Origin: an uncultured Patescibacteria group bacterium
GTDB lineage: Bacteria > Patescibacteriota > JACMRA01
Direction of reading: 5' to 3'
NCBI GenBank assembly: GCA_938041505.1
Contig: CALITC010000009.1
Location: forward strand, 1 to 44,035
DNA: 44,035 nt
The translations under genes and the position numbers were made by a program. Under the pieces are notes generated by a model. The model was not told where the DNA came from and did not search any database. It saw only the letters and a list, made by a program, of their open reading frames with translations. Positions within the stretch are counted from its first letter, which is position 1. Each line of letters opens with the position of its first letter. Below, one piece after another: positions 9,665 to 44,035 of the stretch.

Positions 9665-9667
9665 AGT

Positions 9668-11581: not shown

Positions 11582-11623
11582 GTGTTTTTTACCCAAAACC
11601 CAGTCTGTATCAACGTGCAGACG

Positions 11624-11656: not shown

Positions 11657-11764
11657 CCGTAAAATGTTTAATTGACAATGCTGAACTATCGCTTTTGCGA
11701 CCCGACCCTTTCTAGAACCTGATATATTATTGCTAGACACACTACATATACACAAAAATTGCTA

Positions 11765-12898: not shown

Positions 12899-12913
12899 AT
12901 TTATAGAAAATCC

Positions 12914-13867: not shown

Positions 13868-14031
13868 TTGGTGGTTTTTGTTTTTGTTTGAGTATATCTA
13901 AATAACCTTATACTTAGGTTGGATTAGTGTGATTTTTTAGCACAAAAATATACTCTGATATACCAATTATAAGTAACAAAACTATTCTATGCAACTTTTT
14001 TTCTATTTAATAATATTTATACAAAAATGTT

Positions 14032-14095
14032 TTGCCATTATGAGAACAGATAATAATATATTGTATTGACAAATTAAACAAAAAAGCCGTACACT
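14032..14095 (+). promoter_or_regulatory. Candidate promoters of the flippase leader RNA
   Basis: Two options. One is TTGACA at 14066-14071 with an 18-bp spacer to TACACT (14090-14095). The other is TTGCCA at 14032-14037 with a 16-bp spacer to TAATAT (14054-14059). The second would place the CCGTA/TACGG hairpin at 14087-14100 within the RNA. Confidence 0.4.
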
Positions 14096-14250
14096 TACGG
14101 AGCTGAGAGATAAAAACTTAGCATTTGTGTGTAGAAGAACCTGATGTGTAAGTAAAGTATCTTATTGCCAATACCAGATGCATACGCAGATAGAATTGAC
14201 AATGTGTACTTACGCCAAACCGCCCTTTTAGCCAAAGGGCCGTATTTTTT
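14087..14250 (+). ncRNA. Structured leader RNA or small RNA upstream of the flippase
   Basis: No gene of normal size lies in 13868-14283, yet a promoter and a strong terminator bracket about 160-180 bases. Visible helices are CCGTA (14087-14091) with TACGG (14096-14100), and GTAAGTA (14148-14154) with TACTTAC (14207-14213). GTAAGT could instead pair with ACTTAC at 14093-14098, so two exclusive folds exist. A 17-codon ORF (ATG 14178, TAG 14229) ends in the terminator loop. This could be an attenuator or riboswitch of no class I recognise, or a separate sRNA. The remaining part of the gap, 13868-14030, holds only the leader of the divergent GT2 gene. Confidence 0.4.
14222..14250 (+). terminator. 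Strong intrinsic terminator 33 bases before the flippase start
   Basis: GCCCTTT at 14222-14228 pairs with AAAGGGC at 14234-14240, loop TAGCC, followed by CGTATTTTTT. It lies between the leader promoter and the GTG of the flippase, so flippase expression needs read-through, antitermination or another promoter. Confidence 0.75.
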
Positions 14251-25011: not shown

Positions 25012-25292
25012 ATTCTAATATTAAATTATAATAAACGACCTAAGATTTATATATAGTTAAAAGTGATACAAAAAAGTTTTTTTGTCAAAGTAAGTCGGCG
25101 ATTGAGACCCTCATACTAGATTCACAAAGTGAATCGAACCGAAGGAGCTGGTATAAGCTGAACTTGTTCCCGCTACAATGAAAACAATTGAGCAACCTTT
25201 ACTTAGCACAAAACACCGAACCGAATGGGGCTCGACTTGATCAAGAACTATCTCGGTTTACAACTAAGCAGAAAGGGCAGCTAACCCTTACC
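25012..25292. other. Intergenic region upstream of secE, no gene
   Basis: I see no ORF of interest and no tRNA. It contains GATTCAC-AAA-GTGAATC (25119-25135), a perfect 7-bp hairpin without a T-run, and the self-complementary run around 25067-25086 (ACAAAAAA paired with TTTTTTGT). TTATAAT near 25027-25033 on the minus strand could be the secE -10 box. Confidence 0.4.
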
Positions 25293-25326
25293 AAAAAAAA
25301 TACCTTGGACAAACAAAAATCCAAGG
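25293..25326 (-). terminator. Intrinsic terminator of the giant gene
   Basis: CCTTGGA at 25303-25309 pairs with TCCAAGG at 25320-25326. On the minus strand the hairpin is followed by TATTTTTTTT. It lies about 90 bases after the stop of the giant gene. A second hairpin, ATTAGG with CCTAAT at about 25342-25358, lies between stop and terminator. Confidence 0.8.
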
Positions 25327-25417
25327 CATTCAAACACAAAACATTAGGGAATTCCTAATCCGGGTTAGTATACTTAAAGACGGATAATGAGCTTCAAGCA
25401 AGGTCCCCGGAAGTATT

Positions 25418-28400
25418 CTACGGCAACACCTGACAATCTCCAGAATGTTCAATTGGCGTGGTCGCGTCCTCCATCACCACCGCACATATCTGTGTGGCTC
25501 CAGCTGGCCTACTAGCAATTGGAATCTCATACTGAGTTGTATCAAAGTGCTCTAATCCTGTACTCGCTGCAGTTTCAGTATCCCAGTAGAACCGAATATG
25601 TCTTCCTGCTATTTCTGGGTTAAATCCTTGTGTTGAGAACGTTACTCGGTAGAAATCTCCATTGGTTGTGTCGTTGACCAATGTAGCGTTCGTGATTCTC
25701 ATAGTATAGCTACCGGTACCTGCGCCTAAGTTGCTCACTACAGTGTAATTACCCGCTGCCAAGTCAGTAAATTGATACTGTCCTGCACTTCCTGCGCTAA
25801 TCGCTCTATCGGCATCTCCAGAGAGTATAAAGTCAGTAGTCAGAAGTGGTGTTTCATTGTCTTCTAAGGTATTTGGATCTCCGTCCAAACCATCAGGCTG
25901 ATAGATTCCATCTCCGTTGACATCAATAAATGCGAATCCAGTGATTGATGCGTTGTTCGTCACCACATCTTGAGTTTGATAGAAGGCAAACGCTTGTTGC
26001 TGGTTGAGACCAAATTGATTGAAGGCATACACTGCTTCGTCTACCACCCCTAGACTCAATCCATCACCGCCTGGCCCGTGCACTCCACCTCGACGACGCG
26101 TTGTTATATGATCCTGCCCTGGTAAGTTAGCAAGCTTTCTGATCGTGTACGAAGCCGGAGATCCGTCTATCTCTGCTGGCAGTGCTTTCCAATTACACAC
26201 ATCACTTCCGGTATAACTTAGAGAGTTCAGGGTTCCAAGACTACCATAGTTCAGCCCACTACAATCAAGCACAATACCAGTGTTGTTGTTCACCAGTTCG
26301 TAATCTTGGTTCCCAACAACTTCGTCAAAATCTCCGTTACTGTAGCTACTAATCACCCCATCTCCGTTAAGATCCAAGACTGAATATGCTGCTAGTTCAT
26401 TGGTAAACACATAGGTGTAATTATTGGTGACATCTGTTCCAGTTGTTAGTACTTGTTTTCTTGATAAATTGAAGCTAAACGAACTATTCATGTCATCAAA
26501 ACAGCCAAACAAAGTCATACACTGAGGTTGAATAGTATTAATAATCGAATCTGTGGTTTCTACAAATGGAATATATGAGCCAGGGGTATTGGGGTCATCT
26601 TGGAATAACTTGTAGAAACCAGTCTCAATTCCAGTAAACGTATAGTTTCCGTTCACATCAGTCGGTGCATCAGCCGAGATAATCTGACCATTCGGTCCAT
26701 TAATCTTAACGGTAGCACCTACCAAGGCTTGTTCGTTATCGAAGGTTTCAGGATCACCAGGATTTCCTAAAATACCGTCATCCCCATTTACTTCAAACGT
26801 TTCATTGAGTGTACCTCTGTCGATAAATACATTTCCTTGAATACTGTTATCTGTCCGTGGTTCAAACGCCCACCGCACCCAGTTTTTACCTTGCGGTGCT
26901 AAAGTAAAGGTGTTTGTTAGCACTCCAGTCGAGTTGCTAGCCAAGATAAGAGTTGGATCGTTGATGGTGAGATCGATAGTGTAGGTTCCTGGTTTGAGTG
27001 TGCTATTGATAAAGTAACTGTCTCCTAAATTATTGATATCTACACATCTGTTAATTGCTGGTATACCACACGTTGGAGTAATATAATCTGTATTTATTAT
27101 TGTTTCATTCGGCTGACCTTTCTCATAAGTTAATACAACTGTGTAATCCCATGTTGCCACACCCTCACTCTCGATATTATTAATGGCAATCTCTCGTCCT
27201 CGAGCTGTTTCGTTAGGACTCTCTTCGATCACTCCATCCCCATTGTTATCTACGAATGCATCTGCTCCGATATACCCAATATATCCATACGTCATATCTC
27301 TATTAAGTAGTTCAGAAGTACCTCCCAACACAGTGATATATCCACCAGAAGAACAATTAGCACATTCAGTCCCAGTCGGCGGTGCGTTAATGACCACAGT
27401 ACTGTAAGATCCCTCTGGAATACCATGCCCTCCTGGAATCCAACTAAACTCACCATTTGCGTCGGTGATTTCTGTGGCTACCAATTCACCGCTACCATTC
27501 CGGATTTCAACGGTGTACCCCACTAGAATCTCATCGTTATCGAAATCTGTTACAAGCTGATCGTCTGCTCCGTCTACGTCGGCACCTCCGCCAACTCCAC
27601 GATTAACATAAACCTGTCCACTAATTTCAGTACCAAAAAGAGGGTTGAATCCGTATTTATACGTCGTCGACTGACCTACAGTTTGTGCGTGATTCTTAAC
27701 TAACTCTCCAGCCTGAATTTCGGTGTAATGCGGCGAAGATGTATTAGCATCAATCGGTTCAATATCTATCATTTCCACTTCATAATCTCCTGGAATTACA
27801 CCTGGAATACCTCCAAAAGCAACACCACTATAACCAATCGCAGGAACCGAATTAGACTTAACATTATACGGCACCACTCCAAGAATATCTCCCGTGACTG
27901 CGTCTCTAAGTTCAAAACTTCCATATACATTTGAAGTCGGAGTTGGTACGGACCCACACGATTGTAAGTAGCAAGAATTTTCATTACCTGATAGTGTTAA
28001 GTCTTGGTTTTGATCAATATATGGATATGCTTCCACCTCACCTGTATACAGCAATGCTTCGTCTTGCACTATAACACTACCTGGTGTCAGTGGTGTACGC
28101 AACACTGGATAGTTTGGCGCATTTGACGGATAATTATCGAAGAAGATCGAGTTAACTTCATACGCTGGAGCAATATGATCACACTCCTTAGCCCGTACAC
28201 CAGTGAGCGAGCTCTCATCAGTTACCGTACCTTGCCTCACAACCGCGTACTCTCCTGGTACTATTCCATAAAAGCCTCCACTGCCATCAGAAAATTGTAC
28301 ATTTGTATTATCAAACTTATAATCTCCATTCGCGTTTGTGACTGTTGTTGGCGGATTAGCATTCCACACGGCTAACGGTACAGGGTCTTGAAAACCGTTA

Positions 28401-31400
28401 TAACACTTAATTAATTCTAAAGTCACCCCGTCATACGCAAAGTCATTATCATAGTCGTAGTCGTAGCCACTAGTGTTAGCAGGGTCATCAGTCACTTCCG
28501 TTTTATCATCTCCGCCATCTTCGTCCAAACCGCCTGTATAAGGTGCGCTGCTACCATAGATTGGTCTATTGTGCCAAATCGTTCCTTCAATCTCAGACTC
28601 AGTTTGGTCAATTACCTGGTTAGAAAAAACTCGAGTCTCTATATCTGTCACCTCGGTACCAAGATATATAGTCCGCGTCCAGTTTGTCTCATCAGTCTGA
28701 TCGAAGAATGTTATAGGATACTCTCCACTTGACCCAAAGGCTCCATTGTTAGCTGTACCAAATGCATCACTTAACGACACGGTGTAATCTCGTGGAGGTA
28801 ACTCTTCAACACAAGGCGAACTACCGTTAATAGAATACGTACCTGCCGATTGTTGACCATTAAAGGAGTTGTAAGAAAGGCTGTAGCTTGCTCCTTCATT
28901 CGCAGTAATATCATAATCAACACCCATATCGTAGTTCCCATCTTCGTTTATATCGATATATAAGAACGGACAGATTCTTGCCGTAAATTGGAAGCTCATG
29001 TCTTGCTCGTACGCTTTGTTGTTGAGACCTGTACCAGCGTCGTTAGTTATCACCACTGGAATGACAGAAGGATTTGGCGTGATTGACTTAATACCCACCA
29101 AGCTATTGTTCGGCACTCGCACTTCATAGTCCCCTACTCCTAGTCTATCGAATGAATAGTTTCCTTCCGCATCTGACACCGTTGTATCTACTTCTTCGTA
29201 GAGTGTTGTGGATGTGTTGAGCTTAAAGAGTTTTACTGTCTGATCTACTACCGGCACATCATTATCAAACACCGTAAGTTCGAAGTTATCAGCTCCAGCA
29301 ATATCATAATTATTATTCTCATCACGATCCACATACAAGAAACCAAAGATTGCCCCAAGAGTAAAGTCTGGATTCTGCGTGAAACCGAAATCTTGTAAAA
29401 TATAGTCTTGGCTTACCGCCGTAATATCTTGGTAGAAATCATTCGGATCTGTACCCGACTGCATTACTTCATTAGTATTCCAATACTGACCTGGGAAATA
29501 AGTGTTTACGCCCTGCAACTCTACGCGGTAATCATCAGCAAATAGCCCAGTGAAACACTCCAAACCATTACCACTTAAAGTAACCGAGGTGTACGGATTT
29601 ACTAAGTCGCTACCTCGATACAGATTAACCACAATACCACTAAGCTGTGTTTCGGTCGTTGGGTCATACACTGCATTAAAGTCCAAATCTTCAAACGTGA
29701 CTTGTGGACAGATCGTCACATCCCCTGTGTACCCAAAGTCAAAATTCTGTGTTTGACCTGGACTCAAAGTAATTTGCTGCACTCCACCAGTGGTTGAGAG
29801 AGATCCAAGTGGCTTGTCTGTATCTGCTACATCTAGTGTGTACTGACCTGGCGCTACATTGGTAAAACAATTCGTTCCTCCAGTAATTGCAATTGCTGGA
29901 TAGTTAGTAGACCCTTGCAGTGTAGTTAATTCCACTATTGTTCCATCAGGAAGATATGTATCCAATCCTGCATCATATTGACCGTTGGAGTTAAAGTCTT
30001 CAAAGACATTGGCGGCACAGATTTGTCCATTTCCATTGTAACCAAATTCTGGTTCATACTTCTGACCAAATACTAAATTCGAGGTGGTATCAGGGTTGTC
30101 GTTAGGCGAGCCATTGGCAATTGAAGTGGTGATCGTGTAATCCGGATACGCACTAGACTCAATGATGTAGCTTTCTCCTACCTCGGTATATTGTGTATCA
30201 AAACAGTTTTCTCCTTGCGTACTAGTGATCGTCTCAAGTAATGATCCAAGATCATCTTTGAGTGTAACCGTAACCAAACCGAACCGGAATTCATTTCCAT
30301 CGAACACACCGTTCCCGTCGTCGTCTCTATACACCACAGGGCAGATTAGTGGTCTTCCATCATATCCGAATGGTGTATTTTCTGTATTCCCAGCGGTTGT
30401 AGTCACGTTAATCACCGTTCCTCCAGTCGTCGAAACCGTATTCTCTGGTCTTTCTTGAGATATAATGTACGATCCTTCCAGCAGCTCTGTGAAACAGTTA
30501 GTTCCGGCTGAGTTAGTAGTAAGTGAACCGATTGTTGTGTTCGAAGTATCTTTGAGTGTTGTCGCCACCCCTGTTAAAGTAGGCTCACTATCAAACGCTC
30601 CGTTTCTATCCAGATCCTGGAATGTGGGGGTTGGACAGATCGTCGTGTTCCCCTTGTATCCAAATGGTGTCTCAACCTGCACGCCAAATGCTTGGTTGAA
30701 GGTGTAATTAACCGCTGTTGATGTCAACACCCCTCCATTCGGTACATCTTGCTCCACAAAGAAATCATAATCCCCTCCTGTATCTCCAGTATCTACCGCA
30801 GCAAAACAGTTGCTACTGTTGGTAAGAATAGTTTCAAGTAAAGTTCCCGAATTATCTGTTCCTCGATAGAGTCTAGTATTCAAGTTCCCAATCTCATCCT
30901 CCCCATCTTGCCACACCCCATCTTGGTTGTAATCCGCGAAAGTTGGATTTGGACAAATCTCAGCGGTGTTTTCGTATCCGTAAGACTCATCGTAGATATT
31001 AGTTGTCGCACCATTTCCAGATCCTGGAGTTGCCGTCACTGTTCTAATCAGCGCCTGGACACCTGTAAGCTCAATATCTGAGACAGGGTTATCCGTTTGA
31101 ACCGTATATACTGCTTCCAGTAGTTCAGTGGCACACGTTTGCCCACCGGCATCACTCGTCGTTACACTCACTAAATTACCAAATTCATCTCTAACACGCC
31201 AACCAAATCCAGGCAGTGTAGCTTCAAGTCCATCTAAGACCGAATTAGCGTTGTTATCCATATATACAGAATTTAAACAAACATCCACAATACCTTTGAA
31301 CCCAAAGCTTACATTCTCATCTTGGTTTGGCAGTGGATCAATATTCACACTAAGACTTGTTGAAGTGGTTTCTACTGAGTTACTAGGAGCGGTGATATTG

Positions 31401-34400
31401 ACTTGGTAGTCTTCAGCCTCCGCTCCACTTACATCCTGGAAACAATTGAGTCCTTGATCGTCAGTTGTTAGACTTGCAATTGTGTTGGTCGTGTTGTTGT
31501 CTATCAAATCTACGTTCAGCCCTGCAATATATGGCTCATTAGTATTTCTAGTTCCGTCTTGATTGTAATCTCGGAATGGAAGTGGGCAAATATCTATCTC
31601 ATTCGGTAAGACATCAAACGTAGTTGCAATAGTGGTTAGCGGCCCAGTAGCTCCTTGCACAGTTGTTGTTACTTCGTGAGGACCTTCCGCGTCTGGAATC
31701 GGATCTACATAACACTCCCCATCAATCACATTTCCATTCTTCGTCAAAGGTGTGGAGAATCCTGGACCCGAGAATGTCATACTACAAGCCACCCCATCCA
31801 AAGGTAATCCATTACCGGTATCAACCAATCCGGTGGTGGTTGCGTCAAAATTATATCCTACATAGATAAGCTGGTTGTTAAACACTACTGTCCCTGAGTT
31901 AGTTGGTTGCCCTGGGTTGTTTGGATCTTCTTCGGCCTCCCCTGAAGGATCAAAGCTGAAGCCATTCCCCGCACTTGCCTCTGTAGCAAATTCCAAAGTC
32001 ACCGGTCGTTGTACCTTGTTCCCTACTTCAGTAAAGCCTGTTCCTGTAGGGCTCATACCTGTTGGGATATCCATCTCGATTACATAATCATCTGGGATCT
32101 GCGGCTGGAAACATAGCGAACCATCAGCTTGAATTGTTTCAATTGGTGTTGCTAGATCTGTAGCTAGATATAAGGTGACTGCTAGTGTGTTGCTTCCATC
32201 AATCAAACTCACATCGCTTCCTCCAAAAACTCCATCCTCATCCACATCATTAAATATTGGGTGTGGACAAATATTCTCATTTCCGTTGAAACCAAATGCT
32301 CTGTTCTCAGTGCCACCTGCAGCTAAGTTAATCGTGAAGAAATTGTTTCCTCCTGTTGGCAAAGTCTGTGTTCCGCCAGGGCCACCTGTTAAAATTTCTA
32401 GTGTGTACGTTCCATCAAAGAGGGCTCCGAAACATTGGTAGCCTGTATCTACGCTAGTCTTAGTGTCAATTGTTGCCCCTGAGTTATCTTTGAGCCGCAA
32501 ACTACTTCCGGCAAATAATAGCTCGCTTCCATCATAACTTTGATCGCTCGTATCATCTCTAAATACCAATCCACAAATACTTGCATTGTTCAAAGCTTTG
32601 ACTTCTGTTGGAGTAGCCCCTGTCTCAAATTCTTGCCCTGCTACCGTCACTCGAGAAATCATTGTTGCAGTTCCTAGGTTACCTTGTGCGCTCATTGGTG
32701 TAGTACAGTACCCGCCATTCGTCGTCCCAGTAACTATCTCTGGAGTCTGCCCGCTCACCGTGAGCTCATTTTCACATGGCAAACCATTCGCTAAATTTGT
32801 TGTTCCGTTATGCTGTTGAAGATATGGAGAGGTAAGTGTCGGTGCTTGTCCCAGTACAATTGGGTCTGGATTAGAAGTCGTAGCTCCTGGGATAAATCCA
32901 CCTGTCAAATCAATATTATAGAGTCTATCAAAAGTTGTACTTGGTGTAGTAAGGGTTCCAGAATCTCCAAGAATATTGAGTACAAAGCTATACTCACCTT
33001 CCACCTCACTGCCGCCTTCCAAAAGCCCTGCCTGTGGAATCACAACCTGACATTCACCATTAGCTGCCACTGTAGAATTAAAGGTAAATGTGGTAGTATT
33101 AGGATTAGTGACCACAAACTCACAAGTTGCATTTTCAAGTGCACCATCTGTAATGGAATCTAATAATCCGTTGACTGTAAGAGTTACGTTTTCATTCAAG
33201 AAGGCAGGGTCTGGTGAATTCGATTGAGTGCTAAACTCTGCCTTTCCAGCATTAGCTGAGTCTTCCTTGGCTACATCACTTGGTGAACCAACGAGCGGGA
33301 ATGTATCCTGTCCACTTAAGAATGAATGAGTGACTCCATCTACCACTAGATTTACTTGTGAAACTACATCCACTGACGCTCCTGTGAGGGTACTTGCTGG
33401 TACTTCAAATTGACATTGGCCAGTGCTATTAATTGTTGAGCTATACAACTCGAATCCGGCGTTATCGGTAACTTGAATCAAACAAGCAGTTCCTTCGTCA
33501 ATCGGTGTTACACCATCGTATTTGTAAACAATCGGTGAAGTAAGAGTGTTAACCTCATCTCCAACCAAAGGGTCTTTGTCAGTAGTATTTGCTCCACCAT
33601 ATATAATACTTCCTGTTAAATCAATATCAAAAGCTCTATCAAATGGTACTGGATCGGTAATCAGCGTACCTGTATCTCCTGCAATCTCTACTGTGACATT
33701 ATATGTACCAGCGACTGTAGGCAGTTCAAATTCTGTAAAGTTATAGCTACACTCACCTCCCACCATATTCGCGCTGGTGAAGGTTTGATCGAAGCTACTT
33801 GGTCCTGTGATGCGGAATAAACATGGTAAGCCGTTTAACTCTTGATCGTTACCGCTATCTACATACCCTGTAGAAGTAATTGTCGTTGTCTGGCCGATGA
33901 TTTGTACTGCAGCTGGACTTAAGGTTGCGTATTGCGGCTTGGTCTCGTTTGGGGTGATTTGGGCTTTAGCTAGATTAGAACCTTGAGGAGCTACGGTGAA
34001 TTGCAATGTTACACTCTCTGCTGTGGCCGCTACATCTGTACCTGTTACAGTAATAGTAGCATCGTAAACACCAGTTGCTGTTGGCGCAGTAAAACTTGAT
34101 GGCATCACACACACTCCATCAACCACATTACCTCCGGTGATTGTTTCATTATAGTTACCGCTATCTCCAGTGACTGTAATATCACACAACACATCATCGT
34201 AATAGCCATCTCGAATTGGATTACCGTGCACATTTAAAATATTTTCAATCTGCAAATCATACGTTACATTAGCTTGAACTGGAAATGGATCTGAAGCAAA
34301 CGTTGCCGACGCTAGCCCAGCTTCTGGAATCTGATGCTCGTAGATTGTTCCGTCTATATTTACTGCATCAAACCCATTAATTCCACCTGAGGATTCCGAA

Positions 34401-37400
34401 ATAATATTATTATCTTTATCTTGATAATATAGCGCAATTCTACCCCCAGCACCACGTCCAGCCTGGTCACCAGAACCATCTCCTCCACGAGATTGTATCA
34501 ACCCTGAACCATTTAATTCTTGGACATCAAGCCAAATCGAACCACCAGAGCCACCAGGTAAATATCTAACACCAGAAGCTCCATTTTCTCCGTTTGCAAT
34601 TATTGCACCATTGAGCAAGAATGAATTAACAACTTCAAGCTTCACAGACCCTGCGCCATCACCATCTCGAGCCCCTCCAGACCCAAGCTCATCAGGTTCT
34701 GACTTCGATCCATATGCCGGACCTCCTAGACCGGAGACGAACGATGATCCGCCGTCACCACCTTTGTTTCCATAGCCACCGCCACCAGCGTAACCGCCAC
34801 CTAAAATAGTACCTGCGCCTGGACCATAACCCTGACCTAGAACTGGATCATTTGTATCTTGTCCTGATATATACCCTTTTTCAGAAACGTTAATCTCTCC
34901 TCCTGCTTCAATTATCAAATTATCCAAAACCAAGTCCAGCTTATGCTCCTCGGTTGTGCTATTTTTACTATGAGTCAAAACACCGGTCGACCCTATAGCA
35001 ATATCATTAAATGTTCTTTGATCGACACCACCAAACTCAACCACACCTTCCAAAACAACATCAAGCGGGCTTGAAGAAAATATCTCCTCATCAAAAGTAA
35101 TTTCACTTTCAGCGGGTACAAACAACGACTCGTCGATTGACACACTATTGGTAAAAACAACCTTAGCTTTATTGTTTACGGTGACCTCTGTGTATTCTAG
35201 CACACCTGGATTAAACTGCTTATCTATCTCTGTTATAGCTACGTTAGTAGAGGTAGAGTTGATGTTGTCACCATTATCAATAGCTAAATCTTCTCTTGAG
35301 GTTGACTCAACATGTAAGTAAATAGTTCCAGCTCCTCCAATTTGAGCGGTAGAAGTTCCAGCAGCTGCGGACAACAAACCTCCAAAATTGTTCGTATTTA
35401 CATGTGCTGCAACACGACCACCCGCACCACCACCACCATGGTATGTACCTCCACCGCTGCCTACATTCTTACCTGCGCTTCCATTAGCAGAAATAGCACC
35501 TGTTCCCGTGAAATCATTGGTGTAGATAAGTACGCTACCCCCTGCACCGCCTCCAGGTCGCTGCTCTACTGCAGCAGAAGCATTCATATTAATAGCGCCA
35601 TTTACTTCCAAATCTCCTACAATATCTAATGTTATTGCACCCCCTCCGAATCCACCTATTGAAGAAGTCCTACTACTTCCAGAGCCACCGCTTCCAAATT
35701 CACTTGGATACTTGACTGATCCATACTGGGGTGCATTTACGTCTATTGGGTTGAGGCTTATACCTCCATAACCACCATGACCAGCACCATTGCCTGAAGC
35801 AGTATATTTTCCTCCACCAGGGCCTTCTCCATCAGTTGGGCCAAAACCTCCAGCATATCCAGCCCCAACTCCATCAATATCGCCGTTAATTATGGCACTA
35901 TTAGCGATAATTTTAATCAAGGATTTATCTTCCAACGCTGCTGTAACACCTGTTTCCAGTAGGAATTCATCAATATTACAGTGAATTCCAGCAATTGTTT
36001 CGTTGGCACTAATTATCCAATCCTGCCCACCATGGTCTACGTCACACCCTAAGGCAGTCCGCTCTTGCGAATTTGACTCGATTGAACTACCTACGCTGTT
36101 CACCGCTCGGACTCTGAAGTAATATGTTGTGAATTGATCTAAGTCAGCGATTACAAGACTTGTATCTACACTAACTCCATCGTTGTAAGTTTGCACATTA
36201 CTAAAGTCACTTTGAGTCGCATATTCAATAATATAATCAGAGATCGGCTGTCCATTATTGCCAGGTTCAGTCCAACTAAGCTCAATCACCCCAGAGGCCG
36301 GTTCAGTTAGTACCAGATCGTTAATACTATTAGGTGGTAAGTCTACACCATAATCATATGCCGCTATAAGTTGGGCAGCATTCCCTAAGATCGATGTATA
36401 CTGCACATCTTTGTCAGTACCGGTGTTAGCTGGAGCTCGACCAATATACGTTTGAGAGTCAACGAACTCCATATCATCTAAATAGATTCCATCAACAGTA
36501 ATAGGCGCTGCTTGAATAGCATCTACGGTATTATCCTCTAGCGCAGAATACTTCACCTCAAGATATTCATCTAAAATAGCAATTTCGGGGTCGGTAAGTG
36601 CTTTAGTAAAAATCAAAATTTCGTTAATACCACCTTCAAATTTGCCACTGTTGGCATGTGTTCCTATGAACCCACTATTACCAGTGGCAAGATGTGCTGA
36701 AGAGCCAGGTAAAACGCCTCCGAGCACACCATTATAGTAGATTCTTTTGTTAACTCCTGACTCTAACACACCTACATGTCTACTGTTCTCTCTAACCGTA
36801 AATCCTGGCACAGCAATAGTAGCAGCTGTAAAATTATACCTTTGGAAATAAGCACTTGTATCAGCATTATACCCTAAGCGAGTATCCCTACCATTACTAA
36901 ATCCTTGGGTGCCAATTATCCACTGCTCACCTTTGACGGAATCTCTAAAGGAAGAGGTTACCATAGTATAATTGGTGTTCACAATGCCGTTGTAGTTTGT
37001 AGCAAACAAATCCCCACCATCAAAATATATCGACGGTAATGCTTGGTGCGGGCTCTTTACCAACGTAGGAGTAGATGAGGAAGTGGCATCAATGCCTTTT
37101 CTTCCTTCCCATGTGGTAACTGTGCTGTCTAAGTCCACCAACACATCTGAAGCAGCGAAGTGAGTATATAATTCTGTATCACCTAACAGAGCTCCAAAAC
37201 TAAATACAGATCGATCACTTTTAGAAGTTGTAGATGTAGAAGCGTATTGCACAGTAAATGTATTAACTCCAGAATTCAATGATGGGATTCTCAGCCATAG
37301 CGGCGTAAATTCTGCTCCGCAAGACCCATCTAGATAATAATCAATAGGAGTACCTGTTGAATCTAACACACTTATATTAGAACAATCCACATCCAAAGCT

Positions 37401-40400
37401 TCAAGTTCAATTGCTGACTTAGTATCAATAGCAATAACAGTCTCATGGTCGGTAACTACATCACCTGTATCATTGTTAATTTCCACCTCTTGAACATAAT
37501 ACAGAGGAGAAAAGTAATCACCTTTTATCACTACATTATTCCCACCTTGATCAGGACCTTCTGTTGGAGTAATTGTGTAGATCTCTGGAAGCTTATACTC
37601 ATAACTATCGGTAGAAGTAGTTGTTATATATTCTGATACATGAACCGTTATGTCTGTAAAACCATCTCCCACACCATTAACACCTTCAAGTTTAGATTGT
37701 GGAACCACAGCTTCAATAAACTGTGCATCAGCACTTACCACAGAGAGTGGTGAGAAGTTAGCTATGGATACAGAATCTGTTGACTGAGATTCGCTAGAGA
37801 TGTTAGTAACTGAAGGTAAGTTAGCTATATCATAAAGCCTATACTTATGATTCAAATAACCCCTTATTGCATCATTATTAACAGAGTCATTCTCTTTAAG
37901 AACTATCAACTCAGAAATCTCCGCATCAAGATAATCAGTTCCTTGAGAATCTAAACGAGCACCAATAAAAGCTTCGTTTGGTGTAAGATTGGTTGTTGGT
38001 GCTTCGGTAGTTGAGTCTTTAGTAACAGCATTAACAAACCCTTCTGCACCTCCTGAATCAGCACGTAATTCGAACAAGATAGGTACGCTGTTATCTTCAT
38101 TCAAAATCAAAGTCTGATGAGGAGTAATACTATCCCAATACTGAAAATTAATATTTTGGTTACCTGCAAGTTGATATCCTTGCCGTTTTTGGAAAGTAAA
38201 ACTACCCCCTGTACCATCCACTTGGTTAGTATATACATACCCTCGCTCAAGAGTGCTCGAACTTGGTTCGTTATTCTTAAGCACCGCAAAATGAGTAAAT
38301 TCTGAATGAAGTACTTCAGGGTCAAGCTCAAAATAATCACCTGCACCGTCAAAAACTACTGCTGGCCGAGAATTTATCGCATCTCTTACAATAACTGGGT
38401 CACCTGCAACAAGTCCATGCCTACCATAATTGGATCTATCAAACCAGTCTGGAACTGTCGCTCCATTTGCAATACTATTAAAACCATCACTGTTTGCTTG
38501 CATCCAGAGAGTTACATTACTAGAAGTCAGTGGATTTCCAAAGCTAAAGTTATCAATATTTGATTCGGCAGATAGTGTAGGATTCCCGTAAGTCATCGTA
38601 ACAACATTATCTCCATCTACAAGCGTAGGGTATTTAATCCACACTAGTGTCTCAGCTGTATTGCAACCACTCTCTATGAAGTACTCAAGATTACTCCCGT
38701 TAGTATCCTGAAAACGTAAGTCTGAGCAGTCACTCTTCATTTGAGATAAAGATCTTGTATCTAACTCAACCAATACTTCAGCATCTGTTATAGAAGCACC
38801 TGTGGGATTATTAATCGTGATATCTTTCTCAAAAAGGAAGATATCATAACTACCAAAACTTACTGTGGTGAGTGTACGAACTTCACCAAATTCATAAGTT
38901 GGCATATCTTGTACATCGCGCAAATCGTATTTCTTACTAAGATAATCATCAACAGCATCTCGATCAGAAGATCCCAACGGCTGATCAAACAATATAAGCT
39001 CTGCCATTTCAAAATCAGCCTGACTCATAAATAACCCTTGAGTTTGAGGATTTCCATAAGATGTTGAAGCAGACCCTTGAAATGCACCGTTATAGTAAAA
39101 CGTACTTGACGTGCCAGCCCTAAAAGTACCTAGCTGAGTCCAATCTAGTGTTGCCGCTGGGCCAAAATCATGGAAGCTAAATCCTCCGTATATCCAGTTG
39201 TATCGATTATTCCTAATTCTATGACCAGCACCATTAGCTCCGCCATCTCCGTTATAGAACAAATTAGCATTAGGAATGGTATTCAGCTTGCTGACCGAGT
39301 ATGTTGTAAACTCTGTACCTGTCTGCAATACTGGTCCTGAGAAACCACTATTCAAAAGGTTTATTGATGGTTTTCCATCCCTTTTATTATAGTTTATGTC
39401 TGCGCCAGAGAGCTCCGTAGCCAAAATTGAGTGAGATTCATTAGCTGAGTTAGACCATTCAGTGACTTTATCATTGGCATCTAGAGATATTCCATTGTTT
39501 GCTTTAAACCATCCAACATTAGCACTATCACCAAGTATACCAAAGCTAAAAGGTGTAATATTACTTCTTGATTCTACAGTACTGCTGTCGTAAATTAATT
39601 CTATAGAAACGCCGTCAATCCCTAATACCGGAATTTGTACCCAAATAACTGTATTTATAGTATTACAACCACCATCTATCCAGAATGGTATATCAACACC
39701 ATCTAGCTGAGCTCTAATATTTGTACAGTCAAAATCAAGAACTCCTGAATCAATAAGATCTTTAGTATCAACTACCAAATCAATCTCTTCTTCAATTAAT
39801 GTGTCACCAGTGGGATTAGAGATGTCCACCGCTTGTATCTGACCATTACCAGAAAAACCATCTCCATTTATCAAAACCGTATTACCACCCTCCACCGGAC
39901 CATCAGCAGGAGAAACACTACTAATTTGAGGGTTAACATACGAATAAGCACTGATCGCTTGATTACCATACTGTGTAGTCAGTGTAACATTAACAGAGCC
40001 AGATCCATCACCCCCTAAACTTGATTGAGGTGTTACCACTTGAATTTCCTCATCGCTAATAAAAGTCAGTGCTGATGGGGAATCACCACTTGCAAACTCA
40101 ATATCGCCAGCTGTCAGATTTGCGGGAAAAGAATCACCTCTAATGGTTATAGTCTGGCCTCCACTAATAGGGCCAGTTGAAGGGGAGATACTACTTATGG
40201 TTGGGCCAGCAAACGTGTATCCATTTACCAAGGTATCGCTTTGAGTATCAACATTAGTAAGTGTAACATCCACAGAACCTAGCCCGTTGTTAGCTACATT
40301 AGCTGGGCTGACTATCACCTCAATTTCACCAGTTTCGAGTATATCTTCAATCGTTGCATTTATCCCATCAAATTGAACATCTAGTGCAATAAACGTGGGG

Positions 40401-43400
40401 TCTTGAGGTCCAAAACTAACAACTGGCTCGTTTTGCAGTGAGTCTTTAACAATAAAATTATCAAATGAATATTGACCGCCGTGTCCGTTAAATCCGATTC
40501 TGAACTCTGAATTTGAAAGGTTTGTAGAGTCGTAGAATGGAGTCCAGTTCGCACCATCAGTAGAAAGTTCATACTGTGCTCCTGCACCTTCTTTAAGTTT
40601 GATTCGGTGATATTTGTTTGCACAAGTCCCATGGTTTGCAGCACCCTTCACTTGCGAAGCATTTTCATAGACATAATTATTTGCAGATGCATAATAGAAC
40701 TTGTATGGGTGCTCTCCGAAACTTCCAGTACCCACGGGAGTCGTGGTGTTCATCCAACCATACATGATATTCCCAGAATTACCACAGTCAAACTTCGTTA
40801 TCAGCTCTTTTTCTCCACGCACAAAGGTCTGCTTAGAAAAAATCTGTGGTGCGTGCCAATTACCCGCGCCACTTGTAATATTAAGCTTACCATTAGAAAC
40901 ATTCATATACACTCCTTCAAAAGCCTGATCCCACTTGGTTTGATCAATTGCCGTACCTTCAAATGTCTCTAAGAATTCAAACACACCATCTGGATTCAAA
41001 CCATTTATACCTGGTTCAAGAAGCGCAAGCTTAAAGGTTTTTGTCTCATCTGCGACAAGACTGACCTTAGCATACATAAGCGTTTGCGCTGTCCCACAAG
41101 TTTCATTATCTACCCAAAAATCTTGAGCTGTACCACTAAATGTAAATTGAAAGTTTTTGCAATCAGCATCAGCTAAACCACTAGAAACAAGAGCTGTAGT
41201 ATCGTACAAGAATGTCACCACTTTATCTTCAAATTCTGGATTACCAGTATTATTAAGCTCCACTGATTGACCTCTTTCAGCAGTCGTATTATCAGCATTA
41301 ATAACCACAGTCTGCCCTCCTTCAGGCTCTCCAGTATTTGGTGTTACAGAATTGATACGAGGAGCAAATACTACATTATCCACATTGCTTGGCGAAGCCT
41401 GCTCCCCAGCAGAAGTTATGGCACGAATACGGAATTGATACTCTGGTCCATTGAGTAGATCAGTTAGGGTATAACTTGAAGCCGTGCTAACCCCATCATT
41501 ATATACAAGAATAGTACTAAAGTTATCTGCTGAGTACTCGATAACATAATCGGTAATTACCGATCCGTTTGCTGCTGGCGCGGTAAAACTCAAATCAACC
41601 TCACCATAGTTAGCATTAAGCACTGTAGTTAAATCAGTAATTGCACTTGGTAGGCTCGCAGGAGAAAGTGGAGAAGAGCTCGTATTGGTAGACCCTAAGG
41701 TATAGTACCCATCTTCCAAGTCGCTATTCGCAACAGTAAATTCTACAATACTACCATTTATCGCACTACTTTGTAATAGTACTGGATTATAGTCTCCTGC
41801 ACTGTAAGGACGATAGAGAAGTTCGTAGCCAGACCCAGCAGGGTTTCCACCAAGATACTCATCAAAATCAAAAATTAATGTAGCATCTGTAGACCCAGTT
41901 TTATCAAATGCAAAGTCATTATTCCATCGACTTACAATACCTGAGCCCAAATCTGAACCACTAAGACTGACAGGTTCGGCGGGGTCATAACCTAAGAAAA
42001 CCTTCGCATCATTTTGAGAATTAACCAACTCTACATCCAAAACTGTGTTGGTATTGTTTGGATTCTGTATCTCTGAATTAGCGCCAACTACACGTGAGTG
42101 AGTTGTACTATATTTGTATCCAGATATGCTCGGGTTTGCTGCAGAAGCAGCTAGAGATGTGCTCACAATATCTAATTCACTGTCGGATAGCTTTTTATTA
42201 AATAAAATTGAATTAAAAAATTGTCCGTCTAGTCCGTCACCGATGGTGGAAGGTACTTTTTGGCCTCCTATGTTTGAACTATTAGCTGATGGATACAACG
42301 TATCATTAATGTAAAACTCTGAACCAGAAAAACTGTTGTTTTCTAGTAAATGACTTATGTTTAAATATTGATTGGAAATATTTCCAAGACTATGAGAGCT
42401 GAATGAAGAATTGACCCCTCCATAAGTAATTCCGGATGTTGTCGCAGATATTCGATATCGACCACCAGTTCCAGTTCCAAAGCTATGGATATAATCAGTT
42501 CCAGCAATAGTATCAAATTTGAGATTAGCAATTGATGTATAATTCCCTCCCGTGTTCATTACAGTGTTGGGTACATTCGCGAGAGTGTCATTACCATCAA
42601 AATCCACGCTAGGAGCCCTAAGATCTGCATTATATGTCGGCCTTGCAGAAGCGGTACCTTGTGTAAAGTCTTTTGAAGCATCCCCCTCTTGGTTAACCCA
42701 GGTATTGATCTTACCATCAACTACTTGAGTAGTATCCAATTCATCAATAGCTGTAGCGTCTAAGTAATAATCAATTGAATCTTGGAAACACGAGCTAGTA
42801 TCCAGTGCGTATTTTTGGGATAGATAACACTCAACTTGCTCTCTTTCAGTTTGATTCAACGCTGTATCATATACCAGAATTTCTGCGATATCTCCATTCA
42901 AAAATGAGTCTGCCAGAGGAGCTAATCCTGTGTTATCACCATATACACCAACATACAGATTATCTGTAGTATCAAAATTATCAAATGATGCAGTAGCAGA
43001 CGACTGCTCTTCAAAAGAGCCATTTTGATACGCTTTGGTTCTTTGACCTCTCTCAATAACACCAGTTTTGATACTCATGCCAGGCGGAGCTACACTACCC
43101 AACTCATCTTGATTTGACCCAATATCTGCCAAAAAATCTAGAGTATTAGTAGGGGTAGATTGAAATATCGCCCATCTTCCAGTAAAATCTCGGGCGCTAC
43201 TTTTACCTACCACCCCAGGGTAACTAGTAGTATTAGAGTTTTGAGAAACGGCAATCACTGTCTTCCCTTTTGTTCCCAGATCCAAAATATCACCACCTTC
43301 TAAGAAGTCATCAACCCCATCGAATCTCACCACCTTTTTACCGTTGATGGCATTATGCACGACGGTTGGTTGACTTGCAGAGTCAGATTGAGAAATATCA

Positions 43401-44035
43401 TGATTATTGGCAGAATTATCTGGCCAAGCAGTTAGGGCAACACCATCACTTTCGGTTAAAGTGTCAGCATCGAGATGCAGGCTAAGAGGATTCCCGCAAT
43501 CTTCTACATCGATTGCATATTTATCTCCAAGGTAGCACCGGACTTCTGCATATTCTTCTTCTGTGAGAGGGCGGTCATAGTAGATAAACTCTGCAATATC
43601 ACCGTCCCAGAATGCGCCAGGTATTGCTGAATTAACCACACTAGCACCCAAAACAGGAGGTGCATCTACGCCATCGTAATTTACATAGTCATCAAAACTA
43701 GCATTTGTTGCAGAGTTAGAAGCATTGTTTAAAAATGAAGTTCCTGTTTGTCCATTTAACGTATATCCAGTCAGGAAATAATCAGTACCAGGGTTATAGA
43801 GGTTTGGAGTTATAGAATTATTATCATCGTCAGCTGCGAACAACCGCATATTGCTACCAGCAAAACCAAGGTTCATTCTCTCTGAACTTCCAGACCTATC
43901 AGAAAAAATTGACTTACTAGCTGAAGAATTGGCCTGAGCAACAGCCACTACTGTAGAGTTACTATCGTTATAAAACTCAGGTATTTGCAAATAATCATCA
44001 CCCCCATCAAACCGCACCGCCTTTTTACCATTTAC
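25418..44035 (-). CDS. Giant secreted multidomain adhesin-like protein, 5' end beyond window
   Basis: One frame of more than 6,200 codons, still open at the window edge (a GTG at 44017 lies inside a domain and is not the start). Modules in order: three LamG-like units, FN3, TIG and DUF2341-like units mixed with four more LamG/glucanase-like units, a second FN3 (about residues 2563-2656), two glycine-rich segments (about 2706-2873 and 3053-3193), Ig-like domains (about 3240-3800), and about 18 SdrD B-like repeats to the C-terminus. Such modules bind sugars or form long stalks. Paired cysteines recur in every module type. No LPxTG, SLH or C-terminal membrane helix is visible; the end is ICAVVMEDATTPIEHSGDCQ and four more residues. 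The N-terminus, with any signal peptide, is outside the window. A role in attachment to surfaces or host cells is inferred. Confidence 0.85.
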   Translation of the reverse strand, partial: VNGKKAVRFDGGDDYLQIPEFYNDSNSTVVAVAQANSSASKSIFSDRSGSSERMNLGFAGSNMRLFAADDDNNSITPNLYNPGTDYFLTGYTLNGQTGTSFLNNASNSATNASFDDYVNYDGVDAPPVLGASVVNSAIPGAFWDGDIAEFIYYDRPLTEEEYAEVRCYLGDKYAIDVEDCGNPLSLHLDADTLTESDGVALTAWPDNSANNHDISQSDSASQPTVVHNAINGKKVVRFDGVDDFLEGGDILDLGTKGKTVIAVSQNSNTTSYPGVVGKSSARDFTGRWAIFQSTPTNTLDFLADIGSNQDELGSVAPPGMSIKTGVIERGQRTKAYQNGSFEEQSSATASFDNFDTTDNLYVGVYGDNTGLAPLADSFLNGDIAEILVYDTALNQTEREQVECYLSQKYALDTSSCFQDSIDYYLDATAIDELDTTQVVDGKINTWVNQEGDASKDFTQGTASARPTYNADLRAPSVDFDGNDTLANVPNTVMNTGGNYTSIANLKFDTIAGTDYIHSFGTGTGGRYRISATTSGITYGGVNSSFSSHSLGNISNQYLNISHLLENNSFSGSEFYINDTLYPSANSSNIGGQKVPSTIGDGLDGQFFNSILFNKKLSDSELDIVSTSLAASAANPSISGYKYSTTHSRVVGANSEIQNPNNTNTVLDVELVNSQNDAKVFLGYDPAEPVSLSGSDLGSGIVSRWNNDFAFDKTGSTDATLIFDFDEYLGGNPAGSGYELLYRPYSAGDYNPVLLQSSAINGSIVEFTVANSDLEDGYYTLGSTNTSSSPLSPASLPSAITDLTTVLNANYGEVDLSFTAPAANGSVITDYVIEYSADNFSTILVYNDGVSTASSYTLTDLLNGPEYQFRIRAITSAGEQASPSNVDNVVFAPRINSVTPNTGEPEGGQTVVINADNTTAERGQSVELNNTGNPEFEDKVVTFLYDTTALVSSGLADADCKNFQFTFSGTAQDFWVDNETCGTAQTLMYAKVSLVADETKTFKLALLEPGINGLNPDGVFEFLETFEGTAIDQTKWDQAFEGVYMNVSNGKLNITSGAGNWHAPQIFSKQTFVRGEKELITKFDCGNSGNIMYGWMNTTTPVGTGSFGEHPYKFYYASANNYVYENASQVKGAANHGTCANKYHRIKLKEGAGAQYELSTDGANWTPFYDSTNLSNSEFRIGFNGHGGQYSFDNFIVKDSLQNEPVVSFGPQDPTFIALDVQFDGINATIEDILETGEIEVIVSPANVANNGLGSVDVTLTNVDTQSDTLVNGYTFAGPTISSISPSTGPISGGQTITIRGDSFPANLTAGDIEFASGDSPSALTFISDEEIQVVTPQSSLGGDGSGSVNVTLTTQYGNQAISAYSYVNPQISSVSPADGPVEGGNTVLINGDGFSGNGQIQAVDISNPTGDTLIEEEIDLVVDTKDLIDSGVLDFDCTNIRAQLDGVDIPFWIDGGCNTINTVIWVQIPVLGIDGVSIELIYDSSTVESRSNITPFSFGILGDSANVGWFKANNGISLDANDKVTEWSNSANESHSILATELSGADINYNKRDGKPSINLLNSGFSGPVLQTGTEFTTYSVSKLNTIPNANLFYNGDGGANGAGHRIRNNRYNWIYGGFSFHDFGPAATLDWTQLGTFRAGTSSTFYYNGAFQGSASTSYGNPQTQGLFMSQADFEMAELILFDQPLGSSDRDAVDDYLSKKYDLRDVQDMPTYEFGEVRTLTTVSFGSYDIFLFEKDITINNPTGASITDAEVLVELDTRSLSQMKSDCSDLRFQDTNGSNLEYFIESGCNTAETLVWIKYPTLVDGDNVVTMTYGNPTLSAESNIDNFSFGNPLTSSNVTLWMQANSDGFNSIANGATVPDWFDRSNYGRHGLVAGDPVIVRDAINSRPAVVFDGAGDYFELDPEVLHSEFTHFAVLKNNEPSSSTLERGYVYTNQVDGTGGSFTFQKRQGYQLAGNQNINFQYWDSITPHQTLILNEDNSVPILFELRADSGGAEGFVNAVTKDSTTEAPTTNLTPNEAFIGARLDSQGTDYLDAEISELIVLKENDSVNNDAIRGYLNHKYRLYDIANLPSVTNISSESQSTDSVSIANFSPLSVVSADAQFIEAVVPQSKLEGVNGVGDGFTDITVHVSEYITTTSTDSYEYKLPEIYTITPTEGPDQGGNNVVIKGDYFSPLYYVQEVEINNDTGDVVTDHETVIAIDTKSAIELEALDVDCSNISVLDSTGTPIDYYLDGSCGAEFTPLWLRIPSLNSGVNTFTVQYASTSTTSKSDRSVFSFGALLGDTELYTHFAASDVLVDLDSTVTTWEGRKGIDATSSSTPTLVKSPHQALPSIYFDGGDLFATNYNGIVNTNYTMVTSSFRDSVKGEQWIIGTQGFSNGRDTRLGYNADTSAYFQRYNFTAATIAVPGFTVRENSRHVGVLESGVNKRIYYNGVLGGVLPGSSAHLATGNSGFIGTHANSGKFEGGINEILIFTKALTDPEIAILDEYLEVKYSALEDNTVDAIQAAPITVDGIYLDDMEFVDSQTYIGRAPANTGTDKDVQYTSILGNAAQLIAAYDYGVDLPPNSINDLVLTEPASGVIELSWTEPGNNGQPISDYIIEYATQSDFSNVQTYNDGVSVDTSLVIADLDQFTTYYFRVRAVNSVGSSIESNSQERTALGCDVDHGGQDWIISANETIAGIHCNIDEFLLETGVTAALEDKSLIKIIANSAIINGDIDGVGAGYAGGFGPTDGEGPGGGKYTASGNGAGHGGYGGISLNPIDVNAPQYGSVKYPSEFGSGGSGSSRTSSIGGFGGGAITLDIVGDLEVNGAINMNASAAVEQRPGGGAGGSVLIYTNDFTGTGAISANGSAGKNVGSGGGTYHGGGGAGGRVAAHVNTNNFGGLLSAAAGTSTAQIGGAGTIYLHVESTSREDLAIDNGDNINSTSTNVAITEIDKQFNPGVLEYTEVTVNNKAKVVFTNSVSIDESLFVPAESEITFDEEIFSSSPLDVVLEGVVEFGGVDQRTFNDIAIGSTGVLTHSKNSTTEEHKLDLVLDNLIIEAGGEINVSEKGYISGQDTNDPVLGQGYGPGAGTILGGGYAGGGGYGNKGGDGGSSFVSGLGGPAYGSKSEPDELGSGGARDGDGAGSVKLEVVNSFLLNGAIIANGENGASGVRYLPGGSGGSIWLDVQELNGSGLIQSRGGDGSGDQAGRGAGGRIALYYQDKDNNIISESSGGINGFDAVNIDGTIYEHQIPEAGLASATFASDPFPVQANVTYDLQIENILNVHGNPIRDGYYDDVLCDITVTGDSGNYNETITGGNVVDGVCVMPSSFTAPTATGVYDATITVTGTDVAATAESVTLQFTVAPQGSNLAKAQITPNETKPQYATLSPAAVQIIGQTTTITSTGYVDSGNDQELNGLPCLFRITGPSSFDQTFTSANMVGGECSYNFTEFELPTVAGTYNVTVEIAGDTGTLITDPVPFDRAFDIDLTGSIIYGGANTTDKDPLVGDEVNTLTSPIVYKYDGVTPIDEGTACLIQVTDNAGFELYSSTINSTGQCQFEVPASTLTGASVDVVSQVNLVVDGVTHSFLSGQDTFPLVGSPSDVAKEDSANAGKAEFSTQSNSPDPAFLNENVTLTVNGLLDSITDGALENATCEFVVTNPNTTTFTFNSTVAANGECQVVIPQAGLLEGGSEVEGEYSFVLNILGDSGTLTTPSTTFDRLYNIDLTGGFIPGATTSNPDPIVLGQAPTLTSPYLQQHNGTTNLANGLPCENELTVSGQTPEIVTGTTNGGYCTTPMSAQGNLGTATMISRVTVAGQEFETGATPTEVKALNNASICGLVFRDDTSDQSYDGSELLFAGSSLRLKDNSGATIDTKTSVDTGYQCFGALFDGTYTLEILTGGPGGTQTLPTGGNNFFTINLAAGGTENRAFGFNGNENICPHPIFNDVDEDGVFGGSDVSLIDGSNTLAVTLYLATDLATPIETIQADGSLCFQPQIPDDYVIEMDIPTGMSPTGTGFTEVGNKVQRPVTLEFATEASAGNGFSFDPSGEAEEDPNNPGQPTNSGTVVFNNQLIYVGYNFDATTTGLVDTGNGLPLDGVACSMTFSGPGFSTPLTKNGNVIDGECYVDPIPDAEGPHEVTTTVQGATGPLTTIATTFDVLPNEIDICPLPFRDYNQDGTRNTNEPYIAGLNVDLIDNNTTNTIASLTTDDQGLNCFQDVSGAEAEDYQVNITAPSNSVETTSTSLSVNIDPLPNQDENVSFGFKGIVDVCLNSVYMDNNANSVLDGLEATLPGFGWRVRDEFGNLVSVTTSDAGGQTCATELLEAVYTVQTDNPVSDIELTGVQALIRTVTATPGSGNGATTNIYDESYGYENTAEICPNPTFADYNQDGVWQDGEDEIGNLNTRLYRGTDNSGTLLETILTNSSNCFAAVDTGDTGGDYDFFVEQDVPNGGVLTSTAVNYTFNQAFGVQVETPFGYKGNTTICPTPTFQDLDRNGAFDSEPTLTGVATTLKDTSNTTIGSLTTNSAGTNCFTELLEGSYIISQERPENTVSTTGGTVINVTTTAGNTENTPFGYDGRPLICPVVYRDDDGNGVFDGNEFRFGLVTVTLKDDLGSLLETITSTQGENCFDTQYTEVGESYIIESSAYPDYTITTSIANGSPNDNPDTTSNLVFGQKYEPEFGYNGNGQICAANVFEDFNSNGQYDAGLDTYLPDGTIVELTTLQGSTNYPAIAITGGTNCFTNVAPGQYTLDVADTDKPLGSLSTTGGVQQITLSPGQTQNFDFGYTGDVTICPQVTFEDLDFNAVYDPTTETQLSGIVVNLYRGSDLVNPYTSVTLSGNGLECFTGLFADDYRVELQGVNTYFPGQYWNTNEVMQSGTDPNDFYQDITAVSQDYILQDFGFTQNPDFTLGAIFGFLYVDRDENNNYDIAGADNFELTVFDNDVPVVDQTVKLFKLNTSTTLYEEVDTTVSDAEGNYSFDRLGVGDYEVRVPNNSLVGIKSITPNPSVIPVVITNDAGTGLNNKAYEQDMSFQFTARICPFLYIDINEDGNYDMGVDYDITANEGASYSLSYNSFNGQQSAGTYSINGSSPCVEELPPRDYTVSLSDAFGTANNGAFGSSGEYPITFFDQTDETNWTRTIYLGTEVTDIETRVFSNQVIDQTESEIEGTIWHNRPIYGSSAPYTGGLDEDGGDDKTEVTDDPANTSGYDYDYDNDFAYDGVTLELIKCYNGFQDPVPLAVWNANPPTTVTNANGDYKFDNTNVQFSDGSGGFYGIVPGEYAVVRQGTVTDESSLTGVRAKECDHIAPAYEVNSIFFDNYPSNAPNYPVLRTPLTPGSVIVQDEALLYTGEVEAYPYIDQNQDLTLSGNENSCYLQSCGSVPTPTSNVYGSFELRDAVTGDILGVVPYNVKSNSVPAIGYSGVAFGGIPGVIPGDYEVEMIDIEPIDANTSSPHYTEIQAGELVKNHAQTVGQSTTYKYGFNPLFGTEISGQVYVNRGVGGGADVDGADDQLVTDFDNDEILVGYTVEIRNGSGELVATEITDANGEFSWIPGGHGIPEGSYSTVVINAPPTGTECANCSSGGYITVLGGTSELLNRDMTYGYIGYIGADAFVDNNGDGVIEESPNETARGREIAINNIESEGVATWDYTVVLTYEKGQPNETIINTDYITPTCGIPAINRCVDINNLGDSYFINSTLKPGTYTIDLTINDPTLILASNSTGVLTNTFTLAPQGKNWVRWAFEPRTDNSIQGNVFIDRGTLNETFEVNGDDGILGNPGDPETFDNEQALVGATVKINGPNGQIISADAPTDVNGNYTFTGIETGFYKLFQDDPNTPGSYIPFVETTDSIINTIQPQCMTLFGCFDDMNSSFSFNLSRKQVLTTGTDVTNNYTYVFTNELAAYSVLDLNGDGVISSYSNGDFDEVVGNQDYELVNNNTGIVLDCSGLNYGSLGTLNSLSYTGSDVCNWKALPAEIDGSPASYTIRKLANLPGQDHITTRRRGGVHGPGGDGLSLGVVDEAVYAFNQFGLNQQQAFAFYQTQDVVTNNASITGFAFIDVNGDGIYQPDGLDGDPNTLEDNETPLLTTDFILSGDADRAISAGSAGQYQFTDLAAGNYTVVSNLGAGTGSYTMRITNATLVNDTTNGDFYRVTFSTQGFNPEIAGRHIRFYWDTETAASTGLEHFDTTQYEIPIASRPAGATQICAVVMEDATTPIEHSGDCQVLP
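25421..32590 (-). repeat. Array of about 18 SdrD B-like repeats in the giant protein
   Basis: Repeat units of roughly 100-130 residues, each opening with a strand and an acidic calcium-type loop (such as DYNQDGTRN, DVDEDGVFG, DLDRNGAFD, DINEDGNYD, DVNGDGIYQ). From about 32,600 down to 28,900 most units start with ICP and have a second Cys in a NCF or similar motif. Units nearer the C-terminus lose the Cys and resemble standard SdrD B domains (QGNVFIDRG, DANGEFSWIPGG). One Ig-like unit interrupts the array at about 31,610-31,900. Confidence 0.75.
31610..34310 (-). other. Ig-like domain block of the giant protein
   Basis: Several domains of about 110 residues with the pattern T-x-SP-x(n)-LNGLPCLFRITGP, then GGECSYNF, PTVAGTYNVTVEI and a linking FDRAFDIDLTGSI. 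Each has one cysteine pair. They resemble bacterial Ig-like stalk domains. The linker phrase FDR-hydrophobic-IDLTG recurs three times, which shows tandem duplication. Confidence 0.55.
34440..35900 (-). repeat. Two glycine-rich segments of the giant protein
   Basis: At 35,400-35,900 and 34,440-34,860 the product is dominated by Gly with Ala, Ser and Asn (GAGHGGYGG, GGGAGG, GGGYAGGGGYGNKGGDGG). Between and around them are beta-helix-like phrases (GDLEVNGAINMNA, GGSVLIYTNDFTGTGAISAN, GGSIWLDVQELNGSGLIQS). The two halves repeat the same order, so this is a duplicated module. Confidence 0.65.
36050..44035 (-). other. LamG/FN3/TIG/DUF2341-like module array of the giant protein
   Basis: LamG-like units near 43,500-44,035, 42,800-43,470, 42,140-42,780, 38,900-39,520, 37,850-38,500 and 36,520-37,170, most with VRFDG-x-DD or similar and a GDIAEFIYYD end. 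A glucanase-like unit lies at about 40,430-40,980. TIG units start near 41,370, 40,210, 39,940 and 37,590 (SSISPSTGPISGGQTITIRG). DUF2341-like units (NPTGDTL, DTKDLIDSG, DFDCTN, WIDGGCNT) occur four times, three of them directly after or within reach of a TIG unit. FN3 units lie at about 41,385-41,640 and 36,050-36,330. Confidence 0.65.

Follow-up and report, generated by a model that had tools for sequence, protein, structure and literature searches.

The 44,035 bases analysed here (the window, which is the entire contig C9 of its bin) carry on the minus strand a single stop-free frame of 6,205 codons (6,205 residues), whose product, judged from its sequence, is most likely an extracellular adhesin, rich in acidic residues and stabilised by disulfides and calcium. 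For the full reading, in which an ultrasmall Patescibacterium exports this multidomain adhesin through Sec, we estimate a probability of about 0.68. As far as the protein sequences can be read, the window protein and both relatives carry DUF2341-LamG cassettes inserted within TIG domains. This nested building plan appears to be previously undescribed; no description of a nested TIG architecture was found in the open-licence papers searched.

The frame takes up 18,618 of the 44,035 bases (42%), in agreement with the uninterrupted gene of more than 6,200 codons and over 40% of the window that the preliminary description had claimed. It closes with a TAG stop at 25418-25420 and has its earliest in-frame GTG at 44017, while its 5' end is truncated at the contig edge and not by a stop. 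A frame of 6,205 codons is far beyond chance, and its composition shifts smoothly, GC drifting from 0.40 to 0.455. Gracilibacteria, under which the named relative RU_4_5 is filed, are a group with known reading of TGA as glycine. Since the giant frame contains no TGA (673 glycine codons, none of them TGA) and ends in TAG, its reading is independent of the SR1/Gracilibacteria code. Code 25 (TGA = Gly) was rejected for this gene on the same grounds and because the open reading frames were near-unchanged under it; two of the 19 window frames inspected end in TGA, though TGA reassignment is not apparent here. Downstream of the terminator-like hairpin lie secE and nusG. The spacer of roughly 400 bases that separates secE from the giant gene (25012-25417) contains hairpins and gave no tRNA or Rfam match, and searches for tRNA and Rfam families across the whole window were likewise negative.

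Table 1. Position of the giant gene, its domains and the adjoining hairpin in the window.
Feature	Position	Strand	Remarks
Giant gene	25418..44035	-	6,205 codons present, TAG stop, 5' end cut at contig edge
Three LamG-like (concanavalin-A type) domains, first incomplete	42146..44035	-	Residues ~1-630; Pfam Laminin_G_3, two stretches
First fibronectin type III domain	41366..41638	-	Residues ~800-890; Pfam fn3 (2 stretches), position read from sequence
Nested module 1	40202..41362	-	TIG N-half 892-916, 300-residue insert, TIG C-half from 1217
Uninterrupted TIG	39935..40204	-	Residues 1278-1367; Pfam TIG and NCBIfam match
Nested module 2	37592..39931	-	Two DUF2341-LamG cassettes in a row interrupt TIG; insert of 692 residues
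Nested module 3	36341..37588	-	A single DUF2341-LamG cassette interrupts TIG; insert of 334 residues
Second fibronectin type III domain	36056..36322	-	Pfam
Glycine-rich region	34466..36028	-	Two GPGGG/GPGAG-led units
Ig-like repeats with cysteine pairs	32591..34468	-	Read from sequence; 10 Cys; collinear in G001
Ten SdrD_B-like repeats	28751..32578	-	Residues 3820-5095; Pfam SdrD_B 180 bits
More SdrD/prealbumin-like domains	25751..28750	-	SpaA, CarboxypepD_reg matches; aligned with G001
C-terminal domain, ~100 residues	25421..25750	-	Also in separate proteins beside lgt
Intrinsic-terminator-like hairpin	25298..25331	-	87 bases past the giant stop; -17.7 kcal/mol, z = -4.9

The module types named in the preliminary description were all recovered: LamG_3, fn3, TIG, DUF2341 and SdrD_B scored above their Pfam cut-offs, the glycine-rich stretch (residues 2670-3190) holds 21% Gly, and the Ig-like repeats were recognised by reading the sequence. 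Pattern searches additionally found FDG..D and YL..KY signatures in the LamG-like region, and the insert of nested module 1 contains DUF2341 and a concanavalin-like stretch. Each of the ten SdrD_B-like repeats has exactly two Cys, and most of them contain a calcium loop of the D.[DN].[DN]G type. The protein is strongly acidic, with 806 acidic (D+E) against 245 basic (K+R) residues, and the only membrane-type stretch detected after the N-terminal segment is a single marginal 19-residue window in DUF2341. VKOR was sought in the source bin (1.12 Mb, 26 contigs, estimated completeness 69%) and was not found.

Relatives of the same layout occur in two other genera of the family (G001 and G004). In G001, Candidatus Gracilibacteria bacterium RU_4_5 (JAAUSE010000001), the relative spans start to stop from near contig position 31599 to 11712 (~19.9 kb), two frame jumps dividing it into open frames of 2,498, 1,860 and ~2,286 residues; at 4.7-fold coverage, sequencing error is a possible cause of these jumps. 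The C-terminal ~3,600 residues of the window protein (2609-6205) are collinear with it at 33-35% identity (700 and 1126 bits), and G001 has three of the glycine-rich units, whereas the earlier LamG/TIG part aligns at 24-26% identity and differs in module numbers. The relative in G004 is a 4,001-residue frame with the same N-terminal layout, cut on its 3' side by the contig end. An unbroken frame, collinear relatives in two genera and signal-like N-termini followed by Calx-beta together uphold the view of one giant surface-type protein. A central role, as the preliminary description had proposed, was not shown, as a recognisable copy was present in only three of the six sampled family genomes (three genera), all of them incomplete bins. 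Two of the three genomes without a copy lack both a C-terminal relative and DUF2341, and the third has one short DUF2341 frame; absence from incomplete bins is not proof of true absence.

The preliminary description had also taken TIG followed by DUF2341-like and LamG-like units for a repeated super-module. These modules are indeed present, but they are not neighbours, the cassettes being nested inside TIG. The order is a TIG start of 25 residues (P..G...GG.. and one strand), then DUF2341, LamG and the remaining TIG, and the insertion point is constant, after about position 25 of the ~85 positions of the domain. When the insert was omitted, both halves of the split copies fitted, in order, a TIG profile of 85 positions built from three uninterrupted TIGs, with the N-halves covering positions 1-25 and the C-halves starting at positions 29-45. 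The split modules examined number 13, of which 3 lie in the window, 4 in G001 (one spanning a frame jump) and 6 in G004; their joined halves scored 25-76 bits with this profile. As a control, each N-half was joined to random pieces of the TIG-free part, 500 per module, and the true joined halves exceeded all 500 controls in 10 of the 13 modules, while the remaining three, which include window modules 2 and 3, were reached by 2, 3 and 7 of the 500. With the independent Pfam TIG model (cut-off 20.9 bits) the joined halves of window modules 1, 2 and 3 reached 28.5, 25.0 and 20.8 bits, the first two passing and the third falling just under, and two joined modules from the relatives reached 47.7-49 bits. 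Moreover, the first 27-41 positions of an alignment of the TIG N-half and DUF2341 find their counterpart in IPT domains of MET and plexins. The inserts measure 300-358 residues for a single cassette and 516-692 for a double one or one with a SPRY-like stretch, a label given from reading the sequence. Structure prediction by segments neither supported nor opposed the nesting: the AlphaFold model of one nested module was poor and not interpretable (pLDDT 45, pTM 0.38). Because most TIG copies here are split by inserts of 300-700 residues, such copies are under-reported by profile searches.

In a survey of 380 genomes of the phylum, 66 matched the TIG-DUF2341 alignment, and a single match across the junction (positions 1 or 2 to ~112) was obtained only in the source bin (G000), G001 and G004. 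The matches of other genomes covered DUF2341 or TIG alone, except for some starting at positions 6-25; two genomes of this latter kind (G140 and G181) were read by eye and have no TIG half. In a genome of another family (G247), reading revealed a TIG N-half that is followed by DUF2341 and then, after a much longer insert, by a TIG C-half. The nested arrangement, as far as these sequences indicate, is thus rare yet not limited to one family.

The 5' end of the gene was sought in the bin with the N-terminus of the G001 relative. Contig C24 of the same bin gave the sole match to this N-terminal part of the query, in an open frame (13712-14244, 177 complete codons) that reaches the contig end. Its translation opens with basic residues, goes on to a hydrophobic segment, the A-x-A-like motif EKASASS and a Calx-beta domain (38.4 bits with Pfam, cut-off 27), and is 39% identical to the G001 N-terminus (E 1.7e-22). 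A hydrophobic segment with an A-x-A-like motif is shared by the relatives in G001 and G004 and by the C24 piece; in G001 it is followed by Calx-beta, and the start of the G004 relative is similar. We therefore regard C24 as the likely, putative 5' end of the giant gene. Of the refuting conditions named in the preliminary description, a missing signal peptide and an assembly fusion, most of the outcome speaks for its reading. Because the contigs are without overlap (none of at least 9 bases was found), we only infer the join of C24 to C9. If this join is right and the gap is about as long as in G001 (some 65 residues), the full protein would have ~6,400-6,450 residues. Contig C7 was rejected as the 5' end; it too has an open frame at its end, but with other content and no overlap. 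C7 encodes at 6396-11501 a second large surface-type protein of 1,701 aa with a LamG-like start and a LIRTGG plus membrane tail, followed by the other large frame, open at the contig end.

Further surface-related genes were observed in the bin. The C-terminal domain of the giant protein recurs in proteins of ~640-660 aa adjoining lgt in the source bin (G000, contig C1) and in G001 (C44), and the one on C1 ends in an LPxTG-type tail. Its AlphaFold model (pLDDT 63) gave weak FN3-like PDB matches, none with E < 0.001, and no phage relatives were found for the C-terminal 860 residues of the giant. The window itself contains a cell-surface glycan cluster (5345-13867) with three glycosyltransferases (two GT2, one GT4), a CsaB-like polysaccharide pyruvyl transferase (124 bits, under the 213-bit cut-off), a protein of 1,036 aa that matches CBM_4_9, and an IS4/5-type transposase frame (10742-11572, plus strand).

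The open frame, the domain identities with their nested order, the orthology and a signal-like N-terminus in the relatives are observed, and from there we infer the export, stalk shape, binding and attachment of the proposed adhesin. The N-terminal signal or anchor segment would carry the chain across the membrane, and a long stiff stalk would be built from the C-terminal 3,600 residues, with their glycine-rich and Ig-like parts, SdrD_B and prealbumin-like repeats, paired Cys and calcium loops. The N-terminal part would display the LamG domains and the DUF2341-LamG cassettes, held out from the TIG scaffolds, and the cassettes are probably glycan- or protein-binding, as assumed from other proteins. 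Between genera the number of cassettes varies but the stalk is kept, a pattern that would be expected were the N-terminal part the one in contact with a partner cell or surface. That the protein attaches to host cells or surfaces is plausible, and similar Patescibacteria proteins have been read in this way in the literature; on the whole, the observation in the preliminary description was confirmed and its interpretation was supported in part. More tentatively, TIG may act as an insertion platform in which cassettes of DUF2341 and LamG, whether single, double or extended by a SPRY-like stretch, enter at one fixed loop, and heads could be gained, lost or swapped with the stalk undisturbed, changing the partner specificity of an episymbiont. 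A conserved stalk with variable nested cassettes is a concrete candidate for partner-cell recognition in Patescibacteria, a largely open matter, and the cassettes of ~300-350 aa are defined pieces for its study.

Other explanations of the giant frame were weighed against the adhesin. A protein that builds a cell coat or fibre (as a sheath, an S-layer-like layer or a matrix fibre) and lacks binding to a specific partner would account for the length, acidity, repeats, cysteine pairs and missing clear anchor, and giant proteins of Vampirococcus are thought to be behind its fibrous surface (PMC8080830). However, the many LamG and DUF2341 cassettes are more typical of ligand recognition and their number varies on the N-terminal side, and we consider such a coat unlikely, though it is the strongest of the competitors. 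The protein could also be released, because its C-terminus has no recognisable cell-wall anchor: neither an LPxTG motif nor a membrane segment was found in the last 300 residues, although the bin encodes two sortases. A secreted, cell-free protein that captures or degrades polymers would fit this, as would the overlap of LamG folds with glucanase folds, but it seems improbable, as Pfam and NCBIfam scans detected no catalytic domain, the GH16 catalytic motif was absent by pattern search, and the N-terminal segment, if uncleaved, could anchor the protein.

That the frame is an assembly product fusing separate genes, the caveat raised at the outset, could be argued from the incompleteness of the bin (69% complete, 26 contigs) and from the three frames of the G001 relative. 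Nevertheless, accidental fusion is strongly disfavoured because independent genomes share the module order over the compared stretches, and the frame shows a smooth shift in composition; we judge this explanation very improbable.

The size and kind of the protein are not new. Earlier papers describe giant DUF2341 proteins of Patescibacteria, and among 287 genomes of the phylum examined here for DUF2341, 70 carry it, the longest frame reaching 8,175 residues; this frame (G106:C4), in another Patescibacteria genome, exceeds the giant of the window. With MSCRAMM adhesins of the SdrD type (NF012181) the protein has SdrD_B repeats with calcium-loop-like motifs in common, but it scores 31.9 bits against a family cut-off of 2,500, exceeds the 1,379-position model more than fourfold in length and is without the C-terminal LPxTG/membrane segment. 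The 'SPEARE' type giant surface proteins of nanohaloarchaea (8,880-9,409 aa) likewise combine an ultrasmall host-dependent cell, Ig-like domains, supposed host contact and, to go by the putative 5' piece in our case, a signal peptide, but carry a VirB4/TraG-like ATPase domain (PMC10266531), which the Pfam scan did not find in the 6,205 residues present here. Giant membrane proteins of Vampirococcus lugosii, of up to 4,163 aa, offer a parallel in that they come from a group of small-genome episymbionts, are exported and very large, and contain fibronectin and other adhesion domains, although their described domain set is another one (WD40, PKD, DUF11, integrin) (PMC8080830). For Patescibacteria, 149 proteins of more than 4,000 aa were reported, 82 with FhaB and/or DUF2341; the giant FhaB/DUF2341 proteins, among them one of 6,025 aa in Patescibacterium danicum, are read as adhesins (PMC11809585). 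With 6,205 residues, DUF2341 above cut-off and a relative named within the Patescibacteria group, our protein belongs among the DUF2341 giants, and it shares with them phylum, size class, DUF2341 and the supposed adhesion role. It differs from them in that Pfam scans found no FhaB-type domain, and in its LamG, TIG and SdrD_B domains, with DUF2341-LamG cassettes nested in TIG.
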